Translations under genes and position numbers: made by a program | In this document: positions 20,404 to 29,016 of the stretch, in pieces | How positions within the stretch are numbered: the stretch's first letter is position 1 | Layout: each line of letters begins with the position of its first letter | The notes under the pieces: generated by a model | Seen by the model: only the letters and a program-made list of their open reading frames with translations | What the model was told of the DNA's origin: nothing | Databases searched by the model: none | NCBI RefSeq assembly: GCF_014127285.1 | Contig: NZ_CP059901.1 | Coordinates: 1,240,001 to 1,304,000 of the forward strand | Length of the DNA stretch: 64,000 nt | From: Mumia sp. ZJ1417 | Lineage (GTDB): Bacteria > Actinomycetota > Actinomycetes > Propionibacteriales > Nocardioidaceae | Reading direction: 5' to 3'

Positions 20404-20451
20404 GCCTCACCCGCCACGGGTGAGGCTCACCGCGAGGCACGCGGTGAGACT
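20404..20451 (+). promoter_or_regulatory. Operator E and promoter of the YihY-phosphatase unit
   Basis: TCACCC-GCCAC-GGGTGA (20407-20423) lies in a 10-bp perfect stem (20404-20426). Exactly 22 nt after the palindrome is GAGACT (20446-20451) as a weak -10, and the GTG at 20458 follows six bases later. The palindrome centre is therefore near -43. A second inverted repeat (CTCACCGCG / CGCGGTGAG, 20426-20448) overlaps the -10. The stems might also stop the transcript of the 20113 gene. Confidence 0.7.
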
Positions 20452-20457
20452 TGTGCG

Positions 20458-21336
20458 GTGGGACGGCGTGCCAGCACAGAGGCCTGGGTCGGGAGGGCCG
20501 TCGCCGTCAAGGCGTGGTTCGACGCGTCCTTCCCCGGCCGCTGCGTGCGTCACATGTACGACATGGACGGGCGGAACCGTGCGATCACCCTGTCCGGCCA
20601 GGCGTTCATCGCCCTGATCCCGCTCCTGGTCGTCGGTTCGAGCTGGTTGTCCAGCTCGGGCGACCAGCAGGTCGACGACCTGCTCATCGACTACTTCGGT
20701 CTCACCGGCAGCGCCGCCGAGGCCATGAGCCTGCTGTTCGCGTCGCCGCCGGACGCGACGGGCGGGTTCACCCTCGGGAGCTTCGTGATCCTGCTGCTGT
20801 CGATCGGTTCCTTCTCACGGACGCTCCAGCGGATGTACGAGCTCGCCTGGTCTCTCGAGGCCGCGCCACGGGTGAAGGCCGCCTCGGCCGGCTTCCTCGG
20901 CGTCTTCTTCATGCTCGCGATGTTCGTCCTGGTCGGTTGGGTCGGACACCTCCTCGGCCCCGCGGGCGTCCCGGTCCAAGTGGTGATCTCGGTGCCGCTG
21001 TGGATGATGCTGCTCCGGATCGAGCTGGCGGGGCGTGCCACCGTCGAGGCCCTGCTGCCCGCGGCGATCCTCACGACGGGCGTGCAGCTCGCGGCCGGCT
21101 GGTGGACCCATCTGTACGTGCCGCACCTCATCGCGATCGACGCCCAGCGCTACGGGGTGATCGGTGTCGCGTTCGCGATCGTCGCGTGGCTCGTCGTCGT
21201 GGCGTACGTGCTGGTCGGCACCGCCGTCGTCGGCTACGAGCTGTCGGTCTGGATGCGCGACCGGGGCATCACCGCCACCATGATGGCCTGGGTGGGACGG
21301 GTGGTCCCGCGCCTGACTCGGCAGGAGGACCCATGA
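20458..21336 (+). CDS. YihY/BrkB-family membrane protein
   Basis: A 292-residue protein with about six membrane helices, including AITLSGQAFIALIPLLVVGSSW at 42-63 and several through residue 270. The family is widespread; old labels as ribonuclease BN or serum-resistance factor are not reliable, and function is unknown. A GTG start six bases after the -10 box gives a leaderless message. The downstream phosphatase start overlaps its stop (ATGA), so the two are translationally coupled. First gene of the 20.4-26.6 kb operator-linked cluster. Confidence 0.8.
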   Translation: MGRRASTEAWVGRAVAVKAWFDASFPGRCVRHMYDMDGRNRAITLSGQAFIALIPLLVVGSSWLSSSGDQQVDDLLIDYFGLTGSAAEAMSLLFASPPDATGGFTLGSFVILLLSIGSFSRTLQRMYELAWSLEAAPRVKAASAGFLGVFFMLAMFVLVGWVGHLLGPAGVPVQVVISVPLWMMLLRIELAGRATVEALLPAAILTTGVQLAAGWWTHLYVPHLIAIDAQRYGVIGVAFAIVAWLVVVAYVLVGTAVVGYELSVWMRDRGITATMMAWVGRVVPRLTRQEDP

Positions 21337-22142
21337 TCGATCCCGCGACGTACCCAGGTGCGTCGATCCCCTTGGAGACGCTCCCCAACCTGCGCGGTCT
21401 CGGCGGGTGGAGGACCAGCGACGGGCGCCGTGTCCGCGACGGAGTGCTCTACCGATCGACGGACCTGAGCCGGCTGAGCGGAGCGGACCTGGACGCGGTC
21501 GCCGCGCTCGGCATCCGGACGGTGGTGGACCTGCGGACCCAACCCGAGCGCGCACTGCGCCCGGATGTCGTGGTGCCGGGGGCTGAGCACGTCGTGCTCG
21601 ACGTCCTCGCCGACGACACCGACGCCACACCCACCGACATGGCGACGATCCTCGAGGACCCGAAGCGCGCCAAGACGCTCCTCGGCGACGGGCAGGTGGA
21701 GGAGCTGCTCAGCCGGGCCTACACGCAGCTGGTCGCCCTCCCGAGCGCGCGTACGGCGTACCGGACGTTCTTCTCCGACCTCCTCGCGCTCGACCGCGGC
21801 CCCGTGCTGTTCCACTGCACCACGGGCAAGGACCGTACGGGGTGGGCCGCGGCGACGACCCTCCTGATGGTCGGCGTGCCGGAGGAGGACGTGGTGCGCG
21901 AGTACCTGCTCACCAACGACCAGCTCCTCCCGGCGCTCAAGCCCGTCTTCGACGAGTTCGCGGCGCACGGCGGCGATCCCGCACTGCTCCGCCCGGTCCT
22001 CGGGGTCCGTGAGGCGTACCTCGAGACCAGCATGGCGCAGGCGCGGACGCAGTACGGCGATCTCGCGACGTACTTCGCCGAGGGACTCGGCGTCGGCCCG
22101 GACCGCCGGGAGGCCCTTCGTGACCTCCTGACCGAGTGCTGA
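21333..22142 (+). CDS. Tyrosine-specific (dual-specificity type) phosphatase
   Basis: A 269-residue protein of the Y_phosphatase3 type. The N-terminus has NLRGLGGWRTSDGRRVRDGVLYRS, the substrate-recognition hallmark of this family, and the catalytic P-loop HCTTGKDRTG (C-x5-R) is at about 163-172. It would remove phosphate from tyrosine residues or from phosphoinositide-like substrates. The ATG overlaps the YihY stop codon. Its link with a membrane protein and the operator suggests a signalling role in the same response. Confidence 0.88.
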   Translation: MIDPATYPGASIPLETLPNLRGLGGWRTSDGRRVRDGVLYRSTDLSRLSGADLDAVAALGIRTVVDLRTQPERALRPDVVVPGAEHVVLDVLADDTDATPTDMATILEDPKRAKTLLGDGQVEELLSRAYTQLVALPSARTAYRTFFSDLLALDRGPVLFHCTTGKDRTGWAAATTLLMVGVPEEDVVREYLLTNDQLLPALKPVFDEFAAHGGDPALLRPVLGVREAYLETSMAQARTQYGDLATYFAEGLGVGPDRREALRDLLTEC

Positions 22143-22161
22143 GGCCCGTCCGGGCTCAACG

Positions 22162-22206
22162 TCACCCGCGAAGGGTGATCCCCAGACGGGGCGTTCACCG
22201 CAGAGT
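22162..22206 (+). promoter_or_regulatory. Operator C and promoter of the DUF6325-SHOCT unit
   Basis: TCACCC-GCGAA-GGGTGA (22162-22178) is followed after 22 nt by CAGAGT (22201-22206). The spacing is identical to sites E, D and B. The transcript should start near 22213, giving a short leader with GAGAGGGGAC as ribosome binding site for the ATG at 22241. Confidence 0.7.
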
Positions 22207-22240
22207 GGGACGAAAGCTCGTCGCAGAGAGGGGACATCCG

Positions 22241-22678
22241 ATGGCGGACAACGCGAACCCGTCCGGCCCGGTCGACATCGCCGTGCTGGGGTTCCTGGAG
22301 GGGGCGACGCCTGACGGCAGCGTGGCCACCGTCGTGGCCGACGCCGTCGCGAGCGGAGCCGTACGGCTGCTCGATGCGGTGATCGTCTCCCGCGGTGAAG
22401 ACGGGAGCGTGACGGTGCTCGACATCGACGACGGGGACGCGATCCGCGAGATCCTGGGCGTGGAGTCCGACGTGCCGGGCCTGCTGGGTGAGGAGGACAT
22501 CCTCGCGATCGCCGAGGCGGTGCCGAACGGGACGTCCGCGGTGCTCGTCGTCTGGGAGAACGTGTGGGCCGCTCGCTTCTCCGCAGCGCTCGGCGCTGTA
22601 GGAGGCGTCGTCCTCGCGCACGAGCGCATCGACCGTTCCGACCTCGACGCCGTGGTGGCGGCGTGGGGATCTGAGTGA
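22241..22678 (+). CDS. DUF6325/DUF1269-like protein
   Basis: A 145-residue acidic protein that begins with a short polar N-terminus and then GPVDIAVLGFLEG. The pattern of a beta strand, an Asp/Glu-rich loop (DIDDGDAIREILGVESD) and a final strand-helix with VLVVWENVWAARFSAAL and GGVVLAHERI matches the DUF6325 family, related to DUF1269. Such proteins often sit beside SHOCT genes in actinobacteria. Function unknown; it may form a membrane-associated complex with the next gene product, 13 nt downstream. Confidence 0.75.
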   Translation: MADNANPSGPVDIAVLGFLEGATPDGSVATVVADAVASGAVRLLDAVIVSRGEDGSVTVLDIDDGDAIREILGVESDVPGLLGEEDILAIAEAVPNGTSAVLVVWENVWAARFSAALGAVGGVVLAHERIDRSDLDAVVAAWGSE

Positions 22679-22691
22679 GGAGAGTACGACC

Positions 22692-23045
22692 ATGATCGGT
22701 GGACGTGGGGGACGCCCGGGCCTCATCGGGCTGGCGGCGAGGACTGCTGTCGTGGCAGGAACCGCCGGCGCGGTGAACAACCGGATGCAGCGACGCCAGG
22801 ACGCCCGGTACGAGCAGGAGGCGCAGTCGCAGGCGTACGAGCAGCAGCAACAGCAGGCAGCGATGCAGGCTGCGGCGCAGCAGGCGGCCGCGGCCCAGCA
22901 GTACGCCGCGCAGCAGCCGGCGCCAGCTGCCGCGGGGGGCGGCGACGTCGTCACCCAGCTCGAGCGGCTCGCGGCACTGCAGCAGCAGGGGATCTTGACG
23001 TCGGAGGAGTTCGCCGCCCAGAAGGCCAAGATCCTCGGCGGCTGA
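22692..23045 (+). CDS. SHOCT-domain protein
   Basis: A 117-residue protein. Residues 1-25 are a glycine-rich, weakly hydrophobic N-terminus (LIGLAARTAVVAGTAGAV); 30-80 are a Gln/Ala-rich helical linker; and 86-117 are a SHOCT domain (LERLAALQQQGILTSEEFAAQKAKIL). SHOCT domains are short oligomerisation modules on membrane and secreted proteins. It is in one transcription unit with the DUF6325 gene. Confidence 0.85.
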   Translation: MIGGRGGRPGLIGLAARTAVVAGTAGAVNNRMQRRQDARYEQEAQSQAYEQQQQQAAMQAAAQQAAAAQQYAAQQPAPAAAGGGDVVTQLERLAALQQQGILTSEEFAAQKAKILGG

Positions 23046-23050
23046 GGCAC

Positions 23051-23126
23051 TCGCCGCGCGGCGGTGATCGCCCGCGGCGAATCACCCCGTGGGTGTGATG
23101 CTGCGGCGCCGTGGCGCCGACACGCT
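23051..23126 (+). promoter_or_regulatory. Operator D (two sites) and promoter of the four-TM protein gene
   Basis: D2, TCACCC-CGTGG-GTGTGA (23082-23098), is followed after exactly 22 nt by CACGCT (23121-23126). D1, TCGCCG-CGCGG-CGGTGA (23051-23067), lies 31 bp further up, about three helical turns, on the same DNA face. D1 has no -10 of its own, so it may be an auxiliary site. Confidence 0.6.
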
Positions 23127-23171
23127 GACTGGTACGCGGCGGGGTGGCCGCCGCCTGATGAAGGAGACCGA

Positions 23172-23579
23172 ATGTCCACCCGTTCTGCCACACGCACCAG
23201 CAACCCCTGGGCGCAGGGGCTCACGATCTTCGCAGCAGCGATGCTGGCGATCATCGGGTTCGTCCAGGTTTTCCAGGGGATCGCCGCCATCGCCAAGGAC
23301 GACGTCTTCGTCCGTACCGAGGACTACGTGTACGCGTTCAACGTCACGACGTGGGGCTGGATCCACCTCGTGCTCGGCGTGCTCTTCATCGTGATCGCGT
23401 TCGCGATCATGTCCGGCAACGCGTTCGCGCGCGGAGCCGGCATCGGCCTGGCGGTCCTCTCGATCATCGCCAACTTCCTGTGGCTGCCGTACTACCCGAT
23501 CTGGGCAGTCGTGATCATCGCGTTCAACGTGTTCCTCATCTGGGCACTGGCCAACTACACGCCAGACTTCGAGAGCTGA
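23172..23579 (+). CDS. DUF7144-like four-TM membrane protein
   Basis: A 135-residue protein with four membrane helices (about 14-39, 60-80, 88-108 and 111-130) and few charges. The conserved look is NPWAQGLTIFAAAMLAIIGFVQVFQG and then TWGWIHLVLGVLFI. Such proteins recur in actinobacteria next to SHOCT and AI-2E genes. Function unknown. The start is the ATG at 23172 after AAGGAG. Confidence 0.7.
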   Translation: MSTRSATRTSNPWAQGLTIFAAAMLAIIGFVQVFQGIAAIAKDDVFVRTEDYVYAFNVTTWGWIHLVLGVLFIVIAFAIMSGNAFARGAGIGLAVLSIIANFLWLPYYPIWAVVIIAFNVFLIWALANYTPDFES

Positions 23580-23605
23580 CGATTCCTTCGTTGAACGGAG
23601 CGCGC

Positions 23606-23836
23606 ATGACGAGCGCCTCGCCCGGCCGATCGACCTCGTACGAGATCCTCGTGCGAGGCGAGCTGAGCGAGGCGCTCGTCGCTGCGCTGGCCGCGCTGCG
23701 CCTGCGTGTGGAACCCGGAGACACTGTCGCGCTTCGGGGTGCCTTTCGTGACCGTGCCGAGCTCCTCGGCGCGCTGCAGGCCCTCGAGGAGCTCGGGGTG
23801 GAGCTCATCGAGGTCACCCCCACCCAGGACGACTAA
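23606..23836 (+). CDS. Small protein, paralogue of the 26317-26535 gene
   Basis: A 76-residue protein reading YEILVRGELSEALVAAL, then VALRGAFRDRAELLGALQAL and ELGVELIEV. The order of strand, helix, strand, helix, strand matches a ferredoxin-like fold. The product of 26317-26535 has the same pattern (YVIVVAGALTDAV, LRGRFSGLVALNDLLFAL, DLGLTLVSV), so the two are paralogues within one regulated cluster. Its stop overlaps the convergent gene by three bases. Confidence 0.65.
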   Translation: MTSASPGRSTSYEILVRGELSEALVAALAALRLRVEPGDTVALRGAFRDRAELLGALQALEELGVELIEVTPTQDD

Positions 23837-25170
23837 CCGGGAGTCCCTGGACCACTGGCCGGCTGTTCAGCCGGCTTCCGCTCCCGCGGCCCGGCCACCA
23901 GCTCCACCACGAGCAGGCCCAGCACGATCAGGACGACGATCACCAGCGCGTTGCCCCCGGTCGGATGGTCGAGAGAGACGTAGGCGAGCACCCCGAGCGC
24001 CACGACCGCGACGCGGGCGAAGGTCCGGTAGGTGGCGACGAACGTGGACACGGGGCCGCGGGAGATGCCGGAGCGCTCGCGCATCCGTCCCGCCGCGCCC
24101 ACGATGCCCGTACGGATCGCGGCGCCGGCTCCCGTCGGGGCGAGGAGGAACGCGGTCACCGCGAGCGCGAGCGCGATGACGAGGACCGCGCGCAGCGCGG
24201 TACGGATGAACAGGACGAGCTGGTCGTAGACGACTGCAGCGGCATCAGCGGGCAGCACGTCGGACGGCACCGCGTCGAGGTAGAGCGGCCGGATGAGGTT
24301 GAGGACCAGGCCCAGGAGCACCATCGCGACGGCGACCGAGATCGCGACAGCGAAGAGCGCATGCCTGCGGTCTCGCGCGATGAAGACCGCCGTCGCGAGC
24401 AGGACGAGCCCGAGGATCGGGAGCACGCGCGAGGCCGTCTCGAGCCAGCTGAACCACGTCTGCGCCTTGCCTATGTCATCGGACTGGAAGAGCACGAAGC
24501 TCGCGTTGACCTCGGGGATGCGCTCGGCCAACGCGAACCCACGGTCGACGAGGAGCTGTTTGGCCGCCTCGACGAACGTCGCGATGTTGATGCTCACCGC
24601 ATTGTCGGTGACCTCGACCTGGTCGGTGTCGGCGCCGGTGAGGACGGCGACTGCCTGGCCATGGGCTTCGCGGTTGGCGGTCACCCACGCCTCCTCGAAC
24701 GTCTCGGAGCGGACCACGCGGTCGACGGTGTCGCGCACGAACCCCTCCACGGCGCTCGTCAACGGAGTGGCGAGGGCGGGCAGCAGCGGAGCCGCACGGG
24801 GCGGTACGAAGTCCTGCTGCGCCACTGCGTCGAGCGCCTCCTTCGTCACCGCGTCGATGTTGAGCTGCGTGACGATCACGTCGGTGATGAGGTTGGTGAG
24901 CGCGTCCTGCACCGCCGGGTCCGAGACCAGCGGCGCGACGGTCTCGACGTAGCGGTCGGTGTCGCCGATCTCGTCGTGCGCCCACGTCGCGACGACGGAC
25001 AGCGGGGCCATGAGCGCGCCGAGGAAGACGAGCACGGCGACCAGCGGCGTACGCCACCAGCCGCTGCGTCCGCCGGGGGCGGCCGTGGCGTCGGGCTGAT
25101 CGGACAGGCGCTGCCTGAGATCGGCGACCTCCGCACGGAGCCGTTCGACCTCCTCGTCGTTCGCACTCAT
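23833..25170 (-). CDS. Large membrane protein with N-terminal coiled coil and extracytoplasmic domain
   Basis: A 445-residue protein of unknown function. Residues 5-25 (EEVERLRAEVADLRQRL) form a short coiled coil; a membrane helix follows at about 37-59; residues 60-245 are a large extracytoplasmic domain with DPAVQDALTNLITDVIV and VEGFVRDTVDRVV amphipathic helices; then five further membrane helices and a Pro-rich tail. The ATG overlaps the AI-2E gene stop (ATGA), so the two are co-translated from operator A. Confidence 0.7.
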   Translation of the reverse strand: MSANDEEVERLRAEVADLRQRLSDQPDATAAPGGRSGWWRTPLVAVLVFLGALMAPLSVVATWAHDEIGDTDRYVETVAPLVSDPAVQDALTNLITDVIVTQLNIDAVTKEALDAVAQQDFVPPRAAPLLPALATPLTSAVEGFVRDTVDRVVRSETFEEAWVTANREAHGQAVAVLTGADTDQVEVTDNAVSINIATFVEAAKQLLVDRGFALAERIPEVNASFVLFQSDDIGKAQTWFSWLETASRVLPILGLVLLATAVFIARDRRHALFAVAISVAVAMVLLGLVLNLIRPLYLDAVPSDVLPADAAAVVYDQLVLFIRTALRAVLVIALALAVTAFLLAPTGAGAAIRTGIVGAAGRMRERSGISRGPVSTFVATYRTFARVAVVALGVLAYVSLDHPTGGNALVIVVLIVLGLLVVELVAGPRERKPAEQPASGPGTPG

Positions 25171-26249
25171 GGTGTGGTCCTTTCCACGGCCTTCGGCACG
25201 GTGTCGCTGGACAGCAGCGGGCCGATCCAGCCCCGGTCGGGACTGACGTCGACGAAGACGGCCTTGACGAACAAGGTGAGGGGGATGGCCAGAATCGCCC
25301 CGATGCCGCCGAACAGCGAGGCCCAGAAGATGAGGGACAAGAAGGTCAGCGATCCTGACAGTCCGACCGTGTTGCCGACGACTCGGGGCTGCACGAGGGT
25401 CTGCAGCACGAAGTTCACCGCCGAGTACACGAGGATCACGGCCAGCGCCGTACCCCAGCCGTGATCGAGCAGCGCGATGATCGTCGGCGGAATGAGGCCG
25501 ATGATGAACCCGATGTTGGGAATGTAGTTCGTGAGGAACGCGAGGATGCCCCACAGCCACGGGTCCCGGATGTCGAGCGCGTACAGCGCGACGACGTCGA
25601 CGAGGGCGACGACGAGCCCGAACAGCGTGGACACGACCAGGTACGTCCGCGTCCCCTGGGCGAACCTCCCGAACGCCTCCGCCGTACGCGAGCCGCTCGA
25701 GGGGACCCTGCGCAGCTTCGAGGCGAATGCGCCCGCGTCCGTCGCGACGAAGAAGAGCAGGACGACGATGAAGAAGATGCTCGAGAACGCGCCTGCGACA
25801 CCTCCGATGAGGTCTGTCGCGATCCCGACGAGGCTGCCCAGGTCGATCGACCTGATCATCTCCTGGACCTCCGCGCTACCGACGCCCCACGACTCGAGGA
25901 GGTCCCCGATGTCGTTGACGAACGCCTGGAACTGCGGCTCGTACTCGCCGAGCAACGTCGCGAATCTGCCCGCGGCGACCACCAGGGCGACTCCGAAGCC
26001 GCCCACGATGGCGTACACCGCAAGGAGGGTGGTCCCCGTCGCGAGCCACTCGGGGACGCCGCGCCTCACGGCGAAGTCACGGACGGGTTGGACCGCGACG
26101 ACGAGGACGAGCGCGAGGATGAGCGGCGCGATGATGCCAGCGAACACGCGCAACCCGATCGCTGCGGCGAGGGCGCCGGCGCAGGTGAGGATGATCAGTG
26201 GCTCACGGGGGAGCGCGAGCCGCGTCGATGGCTCTCGATCGTCAGGCAC
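25167..26249 (-). CDS. AI-2E-family transporter
   Basis: A 360-residue membrane protein of the UPF0118/AI-2E family, with an N-terminal pair of helices (about 16-55), a long amphipathic region, and the typical TNYIPNIGFIIGLIPPTIIAL and GLSGSLTFLSLIFWASLFGGIGAILAIPL segments. The name comes from E. coli TqsA; many members move sodium, protons or other small solutes instead, so the substrate is open. GTG start with TAGCGT six bases upstream (leaderless). Confidence 0.88.
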   Translation of the reverse strand: MPDDREPSTRLALPREPLIILTCAGALAAAIGLRVFAGIIAPLILALVLVVAVQPVRDFAVRRGVPEWLATGTTLLAVYAIVGGFGVALVVAAGRFATLLGEYEPQFQAFVNDIGDLLESWGVGSAEVQEMIRSIDLGSLVGIATDLIGGVAGAFSSIFFIVVLLFFVATDAGAFASKLRRVPSSGSRTAEAFGRFAQGTRTYLVVSTLFGLVVALVDVVALYALDIRDPWLWGILAFLTNYIPNIGFIIGLIPPTIIALLDHGWGTALAVILVYSAVNFVLQTLVQPRVVGNTVGLSGSLTFLSLIFWASLFGGIGAILAIPLTLFVKAVFVDVSPDRGWIGPLLSSDTVPKAVERTTP

Positions 26250-26255
26250 GGTTCG

Positions 26256-26301
26256 ACGCTAGGACAGCCCTGGGCTGCTGCGACTCACCCGTGCGGTGTG
26301 A
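26256..26301 (-). promoter_or_regulatory. Operator A and promoter of the AI-2E unit
   Basis: On the minus strand TCACAC-CGCAC-GGGTGA (26301-26285) is followed by GTCGC, an 18-nt gap and TAGCGT (26261-26256); the GTG is six bases further on. Site A and site B agree at 24 of 31 positions. The palindrome centre is near -44. Confidence 0.7.
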
Positions 26302-26316
26302 GATCGGCGCGGACGC

Positions 26317-26535
26317 TCACGCGTTCTGGCGGACCGAGACGAGGGTGAGCCCGAGGTCGTCGAGGGCGAAGAGCAGGTCGTTCAGGGCGACCAGGCCGGA
26401 GAACCGACCGCGCAGCACGAGCCCACCACGCTCTTCGGTCACGTCCAGGCCCCTGGCGCGGGTGGCGCGTGCCACTGCGTCGGTCAACGCACCTGCGACG
26501 ACGATGACGTACGGCGTGCCCTCGTCCTCCTCCAT
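26317..26535 (-). CDS. Small protein, paralogue of the 23606-23836 gene
   Basis: A 72-residue protein with an acidic start and then YVIVVAGALTDAVARATRAR, GGLVLRGRFSGLVALNDLLFAL and DLGLTLVSVRQ. The pattern and the LRGxF motif match the 76-residue protein encoded at 23606. Both lie in operator-linked units, at either side of the cluster. It starts with ATG six bases after the -10 box CAGACT, so it is leaderless. Function unknown. Confidence 0.65.
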   Translation of the reverse strand: MEEDEGTPYVIVVAGALTDAVARATRARGLDVTEERGGLVLRGRFSGLVALNDLLFALDDLGLTLVSVRQNA

Positions 26536-26541
26536 GCGCCC

Positions 26542-26586
26542 AGTCTGCGACGGAGCGGGTGGAGGCGACTCACCCGCTGCGGGCGA
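26542..26586 (-). promoter_or_regulatory. Operator B and promoter of the 72-residue protein gene
   Basis: On the minus strand TCGCCC-GCAGC-GGGTGA (26586-26570) is followed by GTCGC, 17 nt and CAGACT (26547-26542), then six bases to the ATG. The site lies just after the stop codon of the LuxR gene. Confidence 0.7.
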
Positions 26587-26595
26587 GATCGGTGC

Positions 26596-29016
26596 TCACA
26601 AGAGGCCGACGCGCTGCGCTTTGAGGACGGCCTCACGTCGTGACTCGACGCCGAGCTTGCGATAGATCGCCCGCAGGTGAGTCTTGAGGGTGTTGCGGGA
26701 GATGAACAGCGTCGCGCAGAGCTCGCCTTGGTCGAGGGACGTCGGGAGGTATTGGAGGATCTCCAGCTCGCGGGTCGAGAGCGCGACCACGAGCTCGTCG
26801 GTGATCTCCCGATCTTTACGGAGCTCGACGAGCAGGCGCGTGACCAGGTCGCCGTGCGCGCCCACGCGGCCGTGCTCGGCCGTGAGCAGGTCGAACGCCG
26901 ACGGTCCCAGGGCGAGCCACGGCCGCCGCCACCCGTGGACCGCGGTGCTCTCGAGGGCCGGACGCAAGCGGGCCGAGGCCGCGGTGGCGTCGTCGCCCCT
27001 GTGCGCGAGCGCTGCTGCAGCGAGCAGCGTCCGTACGCGCAGGTCCTCGGGGACGTCGTGGGCGCAGTCGACCTGCTCGAGCAGCGGTCCGAGCTGCTCG
27101 CGGACACCGGTCCGCAGGGCGTCCGTGAGTGCGATCCACAACAGGTAGGGCGAGGTGTCGAGCCGCGGGTGAGCCGTACCGACCCGCTGCACCGCGTCGA
27201 CCGCCGTCGTTGTCGCGCCGGCGGACAGCAACGCCGTCACTGCGCCAAGGAGGGTATGACGTGCCACGAGCCACGTGGTCGCCCGCTGGCACTCGGCCAC
27301 CACCTCGTGCGCGGGGCGGGGCGGCTGCACCGCGCGATGACGGAAGTGCTCGGCGAGCAGGTCGAGCAGAGGCGACGGCAGCATCCCTGGGAGCTGGTCC
27401 GCCTGCCCCTGAGGGGGATCGACGCCCGCAGGGGAGCCGCGCTCGACGTCGAGCCACGCGCGGACGAGCGAGACCGATCGGGGTGGAGATCCGTCGCTGA
27501 GCCGCTCGACCTCGCCGGCGGCCTTGTGTGCATCCGCCGGGCGGCCGGCGGCGAAGGCCGCCCACATCGTCATCTCCGCGGCGGTCGCCCCCGCGCACGG
27601 TGCGTGGCGAGCCAGGCGAGAGGCGTACCGCCGGACGGCATCGACCTCGTCGAGCCTGCCGTCGGTGACCAGCAGCGCCCCGTAGACGCGCACCCACGCG
27701 CTGCGCAATCCTGCGGTCGGTGAGCCGGCGCCGAGGTCGACGGCAGGGTCCGCCGCCGCGATCCACTCCTGCGCGGCAGCGCCCTGGCCCTCGCCGAGCG
27801 CGAGCCAGCCGCGGCACAGGGCGGTCAACGTGCCGACTCGCTCGTGCGTGGGGATGTCGAGGCTCGTACGGCGTGCGGTGCGGGCGAGGGCGGCCGCCGC
27901 GCCCACGCTGTCGTCGTTGCGTGCCGCGCGCAGCGTCAGCAGGAGGCGCCCGCGCTCGTCGTCGCGGGCGAACACGGCCGGTACGGCGCTGGTCAGCGCA
28001 TCCAGCGCGCTCCAGTCGTCATCGCCGAGACTTCGGCAGGCGAGCGCGACCGCAACGTCGGCGGCGAGGTCGTCGTCATGGGCCCGCACGGCATGGCCTG
28101 CGCTCGCCTCCAGCTGATCGCGTCCGAACGTCCAGCGTCCGGCGATCTGGTGCAGGGCGTGCAAACGCGCGACAGGCTCGCGCTCGAGCTCGCTCAGGAG
28201 CAGGTGGCGCAGCATCGGGTGGTAGCGGAGGCGGCCGGTCGCGCCGTCGCGCACGACGAAGCCGACCGAGTGCGTGATCTCGCCCAGCACGTCGTAGGCG
28301 TCGGACCGGCCCGACAGGCGGCACGCGAGGGCGACGTCGAACTCCTCGGGCACCGCAGTCGCCAAGAGGAACGCGCGCACTCTGGGATCGAGGTCGGCGA
28401 CCACGTGGGCCATGAGATAGCTGCCACTCGGCGAGTAGGCACCGTCCGTCGCGAGTCCGTCGCGCGAGCGCATCGCCGTCAGCCGGACCCCGGCCGGCCA
28501 TCCGTCGGTCTCGAGGTGCATCGCCTCGGCCTGGGCGTGGTCGAGCCGGCGGCCCGACCTGGCCACGACTCGAGACAGCTCACCCAGCGAGAACGCGAGC
28601 TCCTCCGCCCGGATCTCCGACACCCGCCCGGCGAGCCGGTCAGGGTGGAGCGCGACGAGGGGGTCGACACGCGAGGCGACGACGAGGGACGCCGACGGCC
28701 CTGCGGCTCCGCAGGCCGCGGCGAACGCACTGCCCCATCCCGCGAGGTGGGCATCGTCGACGAGGACGGGGCGGCCCTCGCGCAGTGCGCAAACGACCTG
28801 CTCCCACGGCCGTGCCCGCCCGCCATCGAACGACAGGGCCTCGGGATGCTCCTGCGCCCACTGACGGAGCAGGGTGGTCTTGCCGTACCCGGTCGGAGCC
28901 GCGACAAGCGTGATCGGTCGGCGTGCGGCCCGGTCGAGCGCGCTCAGGAGTCGGCGTCGAACGACGACGCCTGCATCGTCGAACGTCCGCGCGTCCTGGT
29001 CGGCCTGCAGCGTCAC
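26596..29016 (-). CDS. STAND-type LuxR-family (MalT/LAL-like) transcriptional regulator
   Basis: An 806-residue regulator. The Walker A motif APTGYGKTTL (P41 to L49) is typical of MalT-like ATPases; the middle 500 residues are helical repeats of sensor type; the C-terminus (about 740-806) is a LuxR helix-turn-helix (LSTRELEILQYL, then LFISRNTLKTHLRAIYRKLG). Such proteins are usually class II activators switched on by ligand and ATP. The GTG at 29016 is chosen because GGGGAG lies seven bases upstream; an earlier TTG/GTG would add a tail unlike the family. It is the only regulator in the operator-linked cluster and its stop codon abuts operator B, so it is the best candidate to bind that operator. 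Confidence 0.88.
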   Translation of the reverse strand: MTLQADQDARTFDDAGVVVRRRLLSALDRAARRPITLVAAPTGYGKTTLLRQWAQEHPEALSFDGGRARPWEQVVCALREGRPVLVDDAHLAGWGSAFAAACGAAGPSASLVVASRVDPLVALHPDRLAGRVSEIRAEELAFSLGELSRVVARSGRRLDHAQAEAMHLETDGWPAGVRLTAMRSRDGLATDGAYSPSGSYLMAHVVADLDPRVRAFLLATAVPEEFDVALACRLSGRSDAYDVLGEITHSVGFVVRDGATGRLRYHPMLRHLLLSELEREPVARLHALHQIAGRWTFGRDQLEASAGHAVRAHDDDLAADVAVALACRSLGDDDWSALDALTSAVPAVFARDDERGRLLLTLRAARNDDSVGAAAALARTARRTSLDIPTHERVGTLTALCRGWLALGEGQGAAAQEWIAAADPAVDLGAGSPTAGLRSAWVRVYGALLVTDGRLDEVDAVRRYASRLARHAPCAGATAAEMTMWAAFAAGRPADAHKAAGEVERLSDGSPPRSVSLVRAWLDVERGSPAGVDPPQGQADQLPGMLPSPLLDLLAEHFRHRAVQPPRPAHEVVAECQRATTWLVARHTLLGAVTALLSAGATTTAVDAVQRVGTAHPRLDTSPYLLWIALTDALRTGVREQLGPLLEQVDCAHDVPEDLRVRTLLAAAALAHRGDDATAASARLRPALESTAVHGWRRPWLALGPSAFDLLTAEHGRVGAHGDLVTRLLVELRKDREITDELVVALSTRELEILQYLPTSLDQGELCATLFISRNTLKTHLRAIYRKLGVESRREAVLKAQRVGLL

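Follow-up and report, generated by a model that had tools for sequence, protein, structure and literature searches.

Five promoters within 6.2 kb of the Mumia sp. ZJ1417 genome share a 17-bp palindrome, TCACCC-N5-GGGTGA, and the question raised by this locus is which protein reads it and to what effect. They lie in a stretch of 64,000 nucleotides (contig NZ_CP059901.1, positions 1,240,001 to 1,304,000), hereafter the window, which also encodes a neighbouring MalT-like large ATP-binding regulator of the LuxR family (LAL). Judged from sequence, the palindromes are very probably binding sites of this LAL, which would serve as class II activator of about ten promoters, several of them leaderless. 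This reading is carried by the sites themselves, their fixed promoter geometry, their recurrence in front of orthologous genes, their co-occurrence with LAL genes and a covariation between operator and LAL helix. LAL regulators are common in actinobacteria, yet their operators have been hard to define. With the operator, its precise place in the promoter, a list of regulon members and a match between helix and base all in hand, LAL binding specificity becomes directly testable.

Operators and promoter geometry

A pattern scan of the window with the consensus palindrome and the -10 pattern NANNNT recovered the five operators where an earlier note on this DNA had placed them (Table 1), two of them perfect (E and C) and three with one mismatch (D2, A and B). 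The -10 hexamers and their distances from the palindrome end (22 nt for E, C, D2 and B, 23 nt for A) were likewise as claimed there, as were the GTG or ATG codons six bases further on in E, A and B. No palindrome with exactly two mismatches occurred in the whole window. At up to three mismatches, 34 matches were seen for 42 expected, and the 29 of these that carried three mismatches corresponded to chance level.

Two sets of loci were used to examine the geometry. The first comprised 41 family loci (762 kb, window included) and is biased, most of them having been picked because NANNNT lay 22 nt from a perfect site. The second consisted of 78 non-Mumia loci fetched by a DUF7144 protein alone, regardless of sites. 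Perfect arms occurred 80 times at spacer 5 in the biased set versus 0-4 at every other spacer within 0-12, and 27 times versus 0-2 in the unbiased set. Of the 197 start-facing sides of the biased set, 111 had NANNNT at 22 nt and 42 had it at 23 nt (elsewhere 0-10); the corresponding figures for the 94 sides of the unbiased set were 35 and 32 (other distances 0-4). These spacer and -10 peaks, together with the genome-wide -10 association described below, ruled out a chance origin of the five window sites.

When both sets were pooled (228 promoter sides), no -35 element was visible. The -10 hexamers were mostly weak, with the form [CGT]A[CG]NNT, in which the A and the last T are fixed by selection; TAGCGT was the commonest (33/228). 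Position 4 of the arm was C in 88% and T in 12% of the sides. A start codon stood exactly 6 nt past the -10 in 34 of 152 sides of the 22-nt class and in 12 of 76 of the 23-nt class, other offsets from 3 to 11 being represented 2-9 and 0-6 times, respectively. Since this offset peaks in both spacing classes, leaderless starts track the -10 and not the palindrome, and the transcription start site predicted from them lies 34 or 35 nt past the palindrome end. The class II geometry without visible -35, as first proposed for this locus, was upheld by the counts in both sets, while leaderless transcripts are predicted at part of the promoters, those with a start 6 nt past the -10, and not at all of them.

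Twenty-five of 203 palindromes faced genes both ways, each side with its own -10. At L123:8507, L118:14648 and L133:2261 (locus and position), a single palindrome, flanked on either side by a -10 at 22 nt, apparently drives two divergent genes. Two neighbouring one-mismatch sites, L354:4068 and 4934, have the variant right arm AGGTGA in common, possibly another operator variant.

The sites overlap the -35 region, where repressors are generally known to bind too, and could accordingly be read as repressor operators. We consider this very improbable: with no -35 and mostly weak -10s, these promoters do not look strong enough to call for a repressor, and the Actinoplanes homologue proved to be an activator upon deletion and overexpression (PMC7567727; this and the other papers cited by PMC number were drawn upon in excerpt). 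Activation is the effect that we would assign to the sites.

Distribution of the sites and association with LAL genes

The 4.19-Mb genome contained 4 perfect and 19 one-mismatch palindromes, and all 4 perfect ones had NANNNT exactly 22 nt off on one side. The oriented operator/-10 pattern with up to two mismatches gave 12 forward and 17 reverse matches, versus 2 and 2 for the reversed control. At least five promoter sites lay outside the window, and the genes behind them belonged to families also found in related clusters; family names being taken from representatives, they encode an alkyl sulfatase, a SHOCT/PLDc_N protein, a phospholipase-D-type (PLD) protein, a sulfatase and a 186-aa protein. 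Two more one-mismatch matches were located at 2046880 and 3471559. The predicted regulon would extend past the 6.2 kb to about ten promoters, five in the window and at least five outside.

Sites and spacing were conserved in front of orthologous genes, as had been anticipated, in sister Mumia and in the wider loci. The site was kept before the SHOCT/PLDc_N gene in genomes G003 and G005, before the PLD gene in G005, and before the sulfatase and 186-aa genes in G002. Among the six Mumia genomes, G001 alone gave no LAL match at E<=1e-40, and it also lacked the small partner protein described below. Its three one-mismatch matches (two intragenic, none upstream of genes matching the reference set) look like chance.

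With the reversed pattern as control, genomes carrying a perfect site and NANNNT 22 nt from it numbered 4 of 6 in the genus, 45 of 245 in the family (1 control match) and 32 of 396 in the phylum (3 control matches). Sites were frequently clustered, alongside recurring gene families. The earlier note had seen no further full copy in the window and expected sites almost nowhere other than before orthologues of these genes. The first point stands, the window holding no other site with up to two mismatches, but the further promoters in the genome and the phylum-wide spread speak against the second.

The window LAL is 806-839 aa long, depending on its start, and displays a LuxR/GerE domain (PF00196, residues 778-832 of 839, 43.8 bits for a cut-off of 23.5). 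Its NTPase region matched MalT structure 8bob (E 3e-16) and contains the P-loop APTGYGKT. Pfam NTPase models gave sub-cut-off matches only, and the NCBIfam MalT equivalog PRK04841 scored 137 bits, far below its cut-off of 537.

Among 80 loci fetched by DUF7144, sites (at least one with a -10) were present in 25 of 25 with a LAL (>600 aa) versus 9 of 55 without (Fisher 1.4e-13, kinship ignored). With and without LAL, the counts were 3/3 and 3/39 in Streptomyces, 18/18 and 0/3 in Nocardia, and 2/2 and 0/3 in Rhodococcus. LAL presence thus predicts sites, the converse being true in 25 of 34 loci. Eight stretches of the 32 phylum positives, picked for clustered sites, were inspected, of which three came from a single family within the same class and the remaining five from beyond it; a LAL was seen in seven, and the eighth, L406, stops at a contig end and shows a short GerE protein only. 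A full-length LAL search at E<=1e-40 found matches in only 7 of 245 family genomes, leaving 38 of the 45 site-bearing ones unmatched. As it scored three candidates per genome, it was unable to test co-occurrence, hence the use of locus-based tests and of the small partner instead. Alignment A1 had no segment conserved enough for a collection scan and was replaced by a closer subset, A2.

BldM, a response regulator, has a LuxR/NarL-type domain, and the Mumia genome holds 40 GerE matches. An unlinked regulator of the NarL/BldM type might bind the sites, the LAL gene being merely a frequent neighbour or target; the half-sites of BldM are identical to those found here (PMC4125116, PMC8914203), and nine of the 55 loci without LAL carry sites. 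This is very improbable, as LAL presence predicts sites in all 25 loci and operator type follows the LAL helix (see below). Scoring of 31 of the 40 GerE proteins with a helix profile built on cluster LALs from outside Mumia also put the window LAL first, by a modest margin (79.4 vs 73.2 bits). Moreover, the BldM spacer is 4, whereas spacers 4 and 5 were represented here by 1 versus 80 and 0 versus 27 perfect-arm pairs.

A second operator type pointed to the LAL from another side. Twenty-five family genomes had the small protein and lacked a perfect site. Twenty regions from 16 of these genomes were inspected, and 12 of the 20 contained a LAL with helix T[VL]RTHT. Many of these LALs had another palindrome nearby, TCAYCA-N4-TGRTGA, and each of its 10 copies lay 23 nt ahead of NANNNT. 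Scanning the 245 family genomes for this pattern gave 26 matches in 21 genomes, 8 of them already known positive, and none in the control. In 14 further regions (one positive genome, G120, was left out) a TVRTHT LAL was near the site in 10 and not in 4 (L393 to L396). Across 82 LALs with a readable helix, the second palindrome was in the locus for 17 of 22 T[VL]RTHT members versus 0 of 60 others; for the first type the figures were 2 of 22 versus 58 of 60, a contrast partly due to locus choice.

Within the T[VL]RTHT subfamily, helix residue N went with TCACCA (11/11), P with TCATCA (5/5) and S with TCATCA (1/1), the covariation of N versus P/S giving a Fisher value of 8e-5 (kinship ignored). 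In the tree, P formed a single clade and S arose separately among N rows, so that helix residue and operator base changed together twice. Among the sequence evidence for the LAL as reader of the arms, this covariation ranks first and, together with the co-occurrence, it favours the neighbouring LuxR protein as likely binder, as first suggested.

In 21 of 25 second-type palindromes, versus 2 of 208 first-type ones, a third half-site was present at a constant distance of 7 nt. At L338:7457, L349:8098 and 12720, and L383-L392, it lay 7 nt downstream and the promoter position was unchanged. Genes behind second-type operators include the small partner and 725-741-aa proteins.

In the mechanism proposed here, an inducer would switch the LAL on, a step that depends on ATP in MalT. 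Its LuxR-type helix-turn-helix would then, as a dimer, read both inverted GGGTGA arms of a palindrome centred near -43, and the bound LAL would contact RNA polymerase at the -35 region, substituting for the missing -35 at promoters with a weak -10.

Several points weigh against this explanation. The 22-nt peak of the 41-locus set was partly produced by locus choice, the unbiased set being the clean test. Kinship among genomes and the double appearance of some of them among the 82 LALs reduce independence, and the Fisher values take neither into account. The nine loci with sites and no LAL include all four Nocardioides loci, which implies a regulator acting from beyond the stretch or some sites being read by another protein; for Nocardioides L215, the LAL lies across the stretch end (seen in L097). 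The Mumia LAL gene has no operator of its own. At locus L400, TCATCC-N5-GGATGA sites accompany a LAL with N, and the N versus P/S rule fails outside the subfamily. Finally, in Actinoplanes too, binding was inferred from deletion and overexpression, according to the excerpts (PMC7567727). The idea that LALs with TCATCC-N5-GGATGA lack helix N was dropped, L400, its sole informative locus, contradicting it; the search concerned was too strict (2 of 393 genomes).

Elsewhere, an operator precedes the LAL gene itself (L116:11019, L124:8887 and L127:9717), which suggests autoregulation there. Short LAL-like proteins of 372-446 aa occur beside a full-length LAL at L120:13265-14590, L121:12206-13489, L115:15931-17049 and L108:6760-8100. 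One of 441 aa displayed a LuxR domain and a TPR region, with no Pfam NTPase match.

The small partner protein and the genes behind the sites

The two small proteins of the window form one unannotated family of about 70 aa, here called small partner. It had no Pfam or NCBIfam match and its best hit in the Protein Data Bank reached E 0.037. Structure prediction gave, with good confidence (pLDDT 88.6, pTM 0.72), the order E-H-E-E-H-E, which we read as ferredoxin-like. The family keeps company with LAL genes across actinobacteria, and tandem double domains were noticed in some loci (e.g. L120:14587-15057 and L115:15442-15915).

This family raises the possibility, tentative at present, that the LAL does not act alone and that the small protein is its co-sensor, anti-activator or partner, which would extend the LAL reading to a single module. 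It was present in all 34 of the 245 family genomes with at least two perfect sites and in 40 of the 45 with any, the five others having a single site each. It also lay within 3 kb of 55 of 76 LAL-sized GerE matches (20 of the loci having been chosen for holding it), including where the operator was of the other type, and it was the first gene behind the site at 15 of 161 promoters. In the DUF7144 set, it was found in 16 of 25 LAL loci versus 1 of 55 others. Conversely, 9 of these 25 LAL loci had no detectable copy, 25 of the 245 family genomes had the small partner and no perfect site, and no such protein is named in the excerpted Actinoplanes paper (PMC7567727). A phylum-wide and hitherto unrecognised signalling module may be envisaged, though with rather less than even confidence, in which the LAL and its ferredoxin-like partner constitute one sensor and the operators of subfamilies changed with the helix, the promoter place being kept.

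A census covering the window and L094-L138 comprised 161 promoters with a gene within 250 nt and 14 more without. First genes encoded DUF7144 (18), DUF6325 (12), AI-2E (11), small partner (11, plus 4 tandem forms), PLD (9), sulfatase (9) and DUF1269 (8) proteins, others being fewer and 27 having no assigned family. Transporters, sulfatases, PLD-type and small proteins suggest an envelope or nutrient response, which is a guess. DUF6325 and DUF7144 were named in no paper of the literature searched, and the present regulon offers these proteins a first regulatory context.

Table 1. Operators, -10 hexamers and genes of the cluster (window positions)
Feature	Position	Strand	Remarks
Operator E	20407..20423	+	perfect palindrome TCACCCGCCACGGGTGA
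-10 of E, GAGACT	20446..20451	+	22 nt past operator; GTG at 20458 six bases on, predicted leaderless
Operator C	22162..22178	+	perfect palindrome TCACCCGCGAAGGGTGA
-10 of C, CAGAGT	22201..22206	+	22 nt past operator
Operator D2	23082..23098	+	one mismatch, TCACCCCGTGGGTGTGA
-10 of D2, CACGCT	23121..23126	+	22 nt past operator
Operator A	26285..26301	-	one mismatch, TCACCCGTGCGGTGTGA as + strand
-10 of A, TAGCGT	26256..26261	-	23 nt past operator
Operator B	26570..26586	-	one mismatch, TCACCCGCTGCGGGCGA as + strand
-10 of B, CAGACT	26542..26547	-	22 nt past operator
292-aa protein	20458..21336	+	first gene behind operator E; no Pfam or NCBIfam match, "YihY" being a label of the earlier note only
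Tyrosine phosphatase	21333..22142	+	Pfam Y_phosphatase3
DUF6325 protein	22241..22678	+	behind operator C
SHOCT protein	22692..23045	+	
DUF7144 protein	23172..23579	+	behind operator D2
Small partner 1, 76 aa	23606..23836	+	same family as 26317-26535
445-aa protein	23833..25170	-	no Pfam match; family present in 23 of 46 loci clustered
AI-2E family transporter	25167..26249	-	predicted leaderless GTG start
Small partner 2, 72 aa	26317..26535	-	predicted leaderless; predicted E-H-E-E-H-E fold
LAL regulator	26596..29016	-	MalT-like NTPase and C-terminal LuxR/GerE helix-turn-helix; alternative start 29115

Comparison with known systems

The earlier note knew of no described counterpart to this layout. 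Yet, Droste et al. (2020) reported a nearly identical one, the MalT regulon or MRLGR, in Actinoplanes sp. SE50/110, where TCATCC-5nt-GGATGA precedes 17 mapped starts of a 51-gene region activated by the MalT-like ACSP50_3915, as established by deletion and overexpression (PMC7567727). In both systems, which share a 17-bp palindrome with two 6-bp arms, a 5-nt spacer and a -35 overlap, the gene of a MalT-like LuxR activator (predicted as such in Mumia) lies inside the co-regulated cluster, many genes of which are uncharacterised and some membrane-related. The palindrome end is 34.4 +/- 1.0 nt from the transcription start in Actinoplanes (PMC7567727), compared with the 34-35 nt predicted here from leaderless starts. 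Two LALs occur in the Actinoplanes region and likewise in several relatives' clusters. The arms differ (TCATCC/GGATGA there, TCACCC/GGGTGA here), and maltose dependence is a feature of Actinoplanes, the Mumia regulon being predicted from sequence. Gene content overlaps partially, and by name only, in a class II amidotransferase, an amino acid permease and an M24 aminopeptidase, which sit in relatives' clusters and not behind Mumia's ten promoters. Both arm types were met in one cluster at L400, together with DUF7144, DUF6325, sulfatase and LAL genes.

MalT of E. coli and Klebsiella combines, like the window LAL, an NTPase with a C-terminal LuxR domain. Its box, GGA[TG]GA, overlaps the -35 (PMC7567727, PMC9628970) and differs by one base from the arm GGGTGA. 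MalT boxes are described in these excerpts as hexamer-core repeats, whereas the sites considered here are N5 palindromes, with no maltose genes behind them.

Sites of the CRP/FNR type, whose half-sites are inward TGTGA...TCACA, were rejected, the present half-sites pointing the opposite way. Group I BldM of Streptomyces binds TCACcCgnncGgGTGA, with half-sites TCACCC/GGGTGA (PMC4125116, PMC8914203). Its excerpted description is that of a response regulator of developmental genes with a 16-bp palindrome and a 4-nt spacer, in contrast to the 5-nt spacer and LAL of this study. Spacer 4 accounted for 1 of 86 perfect-arm pairs in the 41 family loci and 0 of 33 in the 78 unbiased loci (spacers 0-12), and a spacer-4 scan of the Mumia genome turned up a single perfect palindrome and 27 with one mismatch (3 in the control). 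On spacer length, a BldM-type binder was rejected.

In the literature searched, nothing closer than the Actinoplanes regulon and BldM was found, and, for the LAL SCO6993, prediction of a consensus is reported to have failed in the excerpted study (PMC9628970). Against this background, the GGGTGA variant, its breadth, the operator/helix covariation and the conserved partner of about 70 aa appear to be new.

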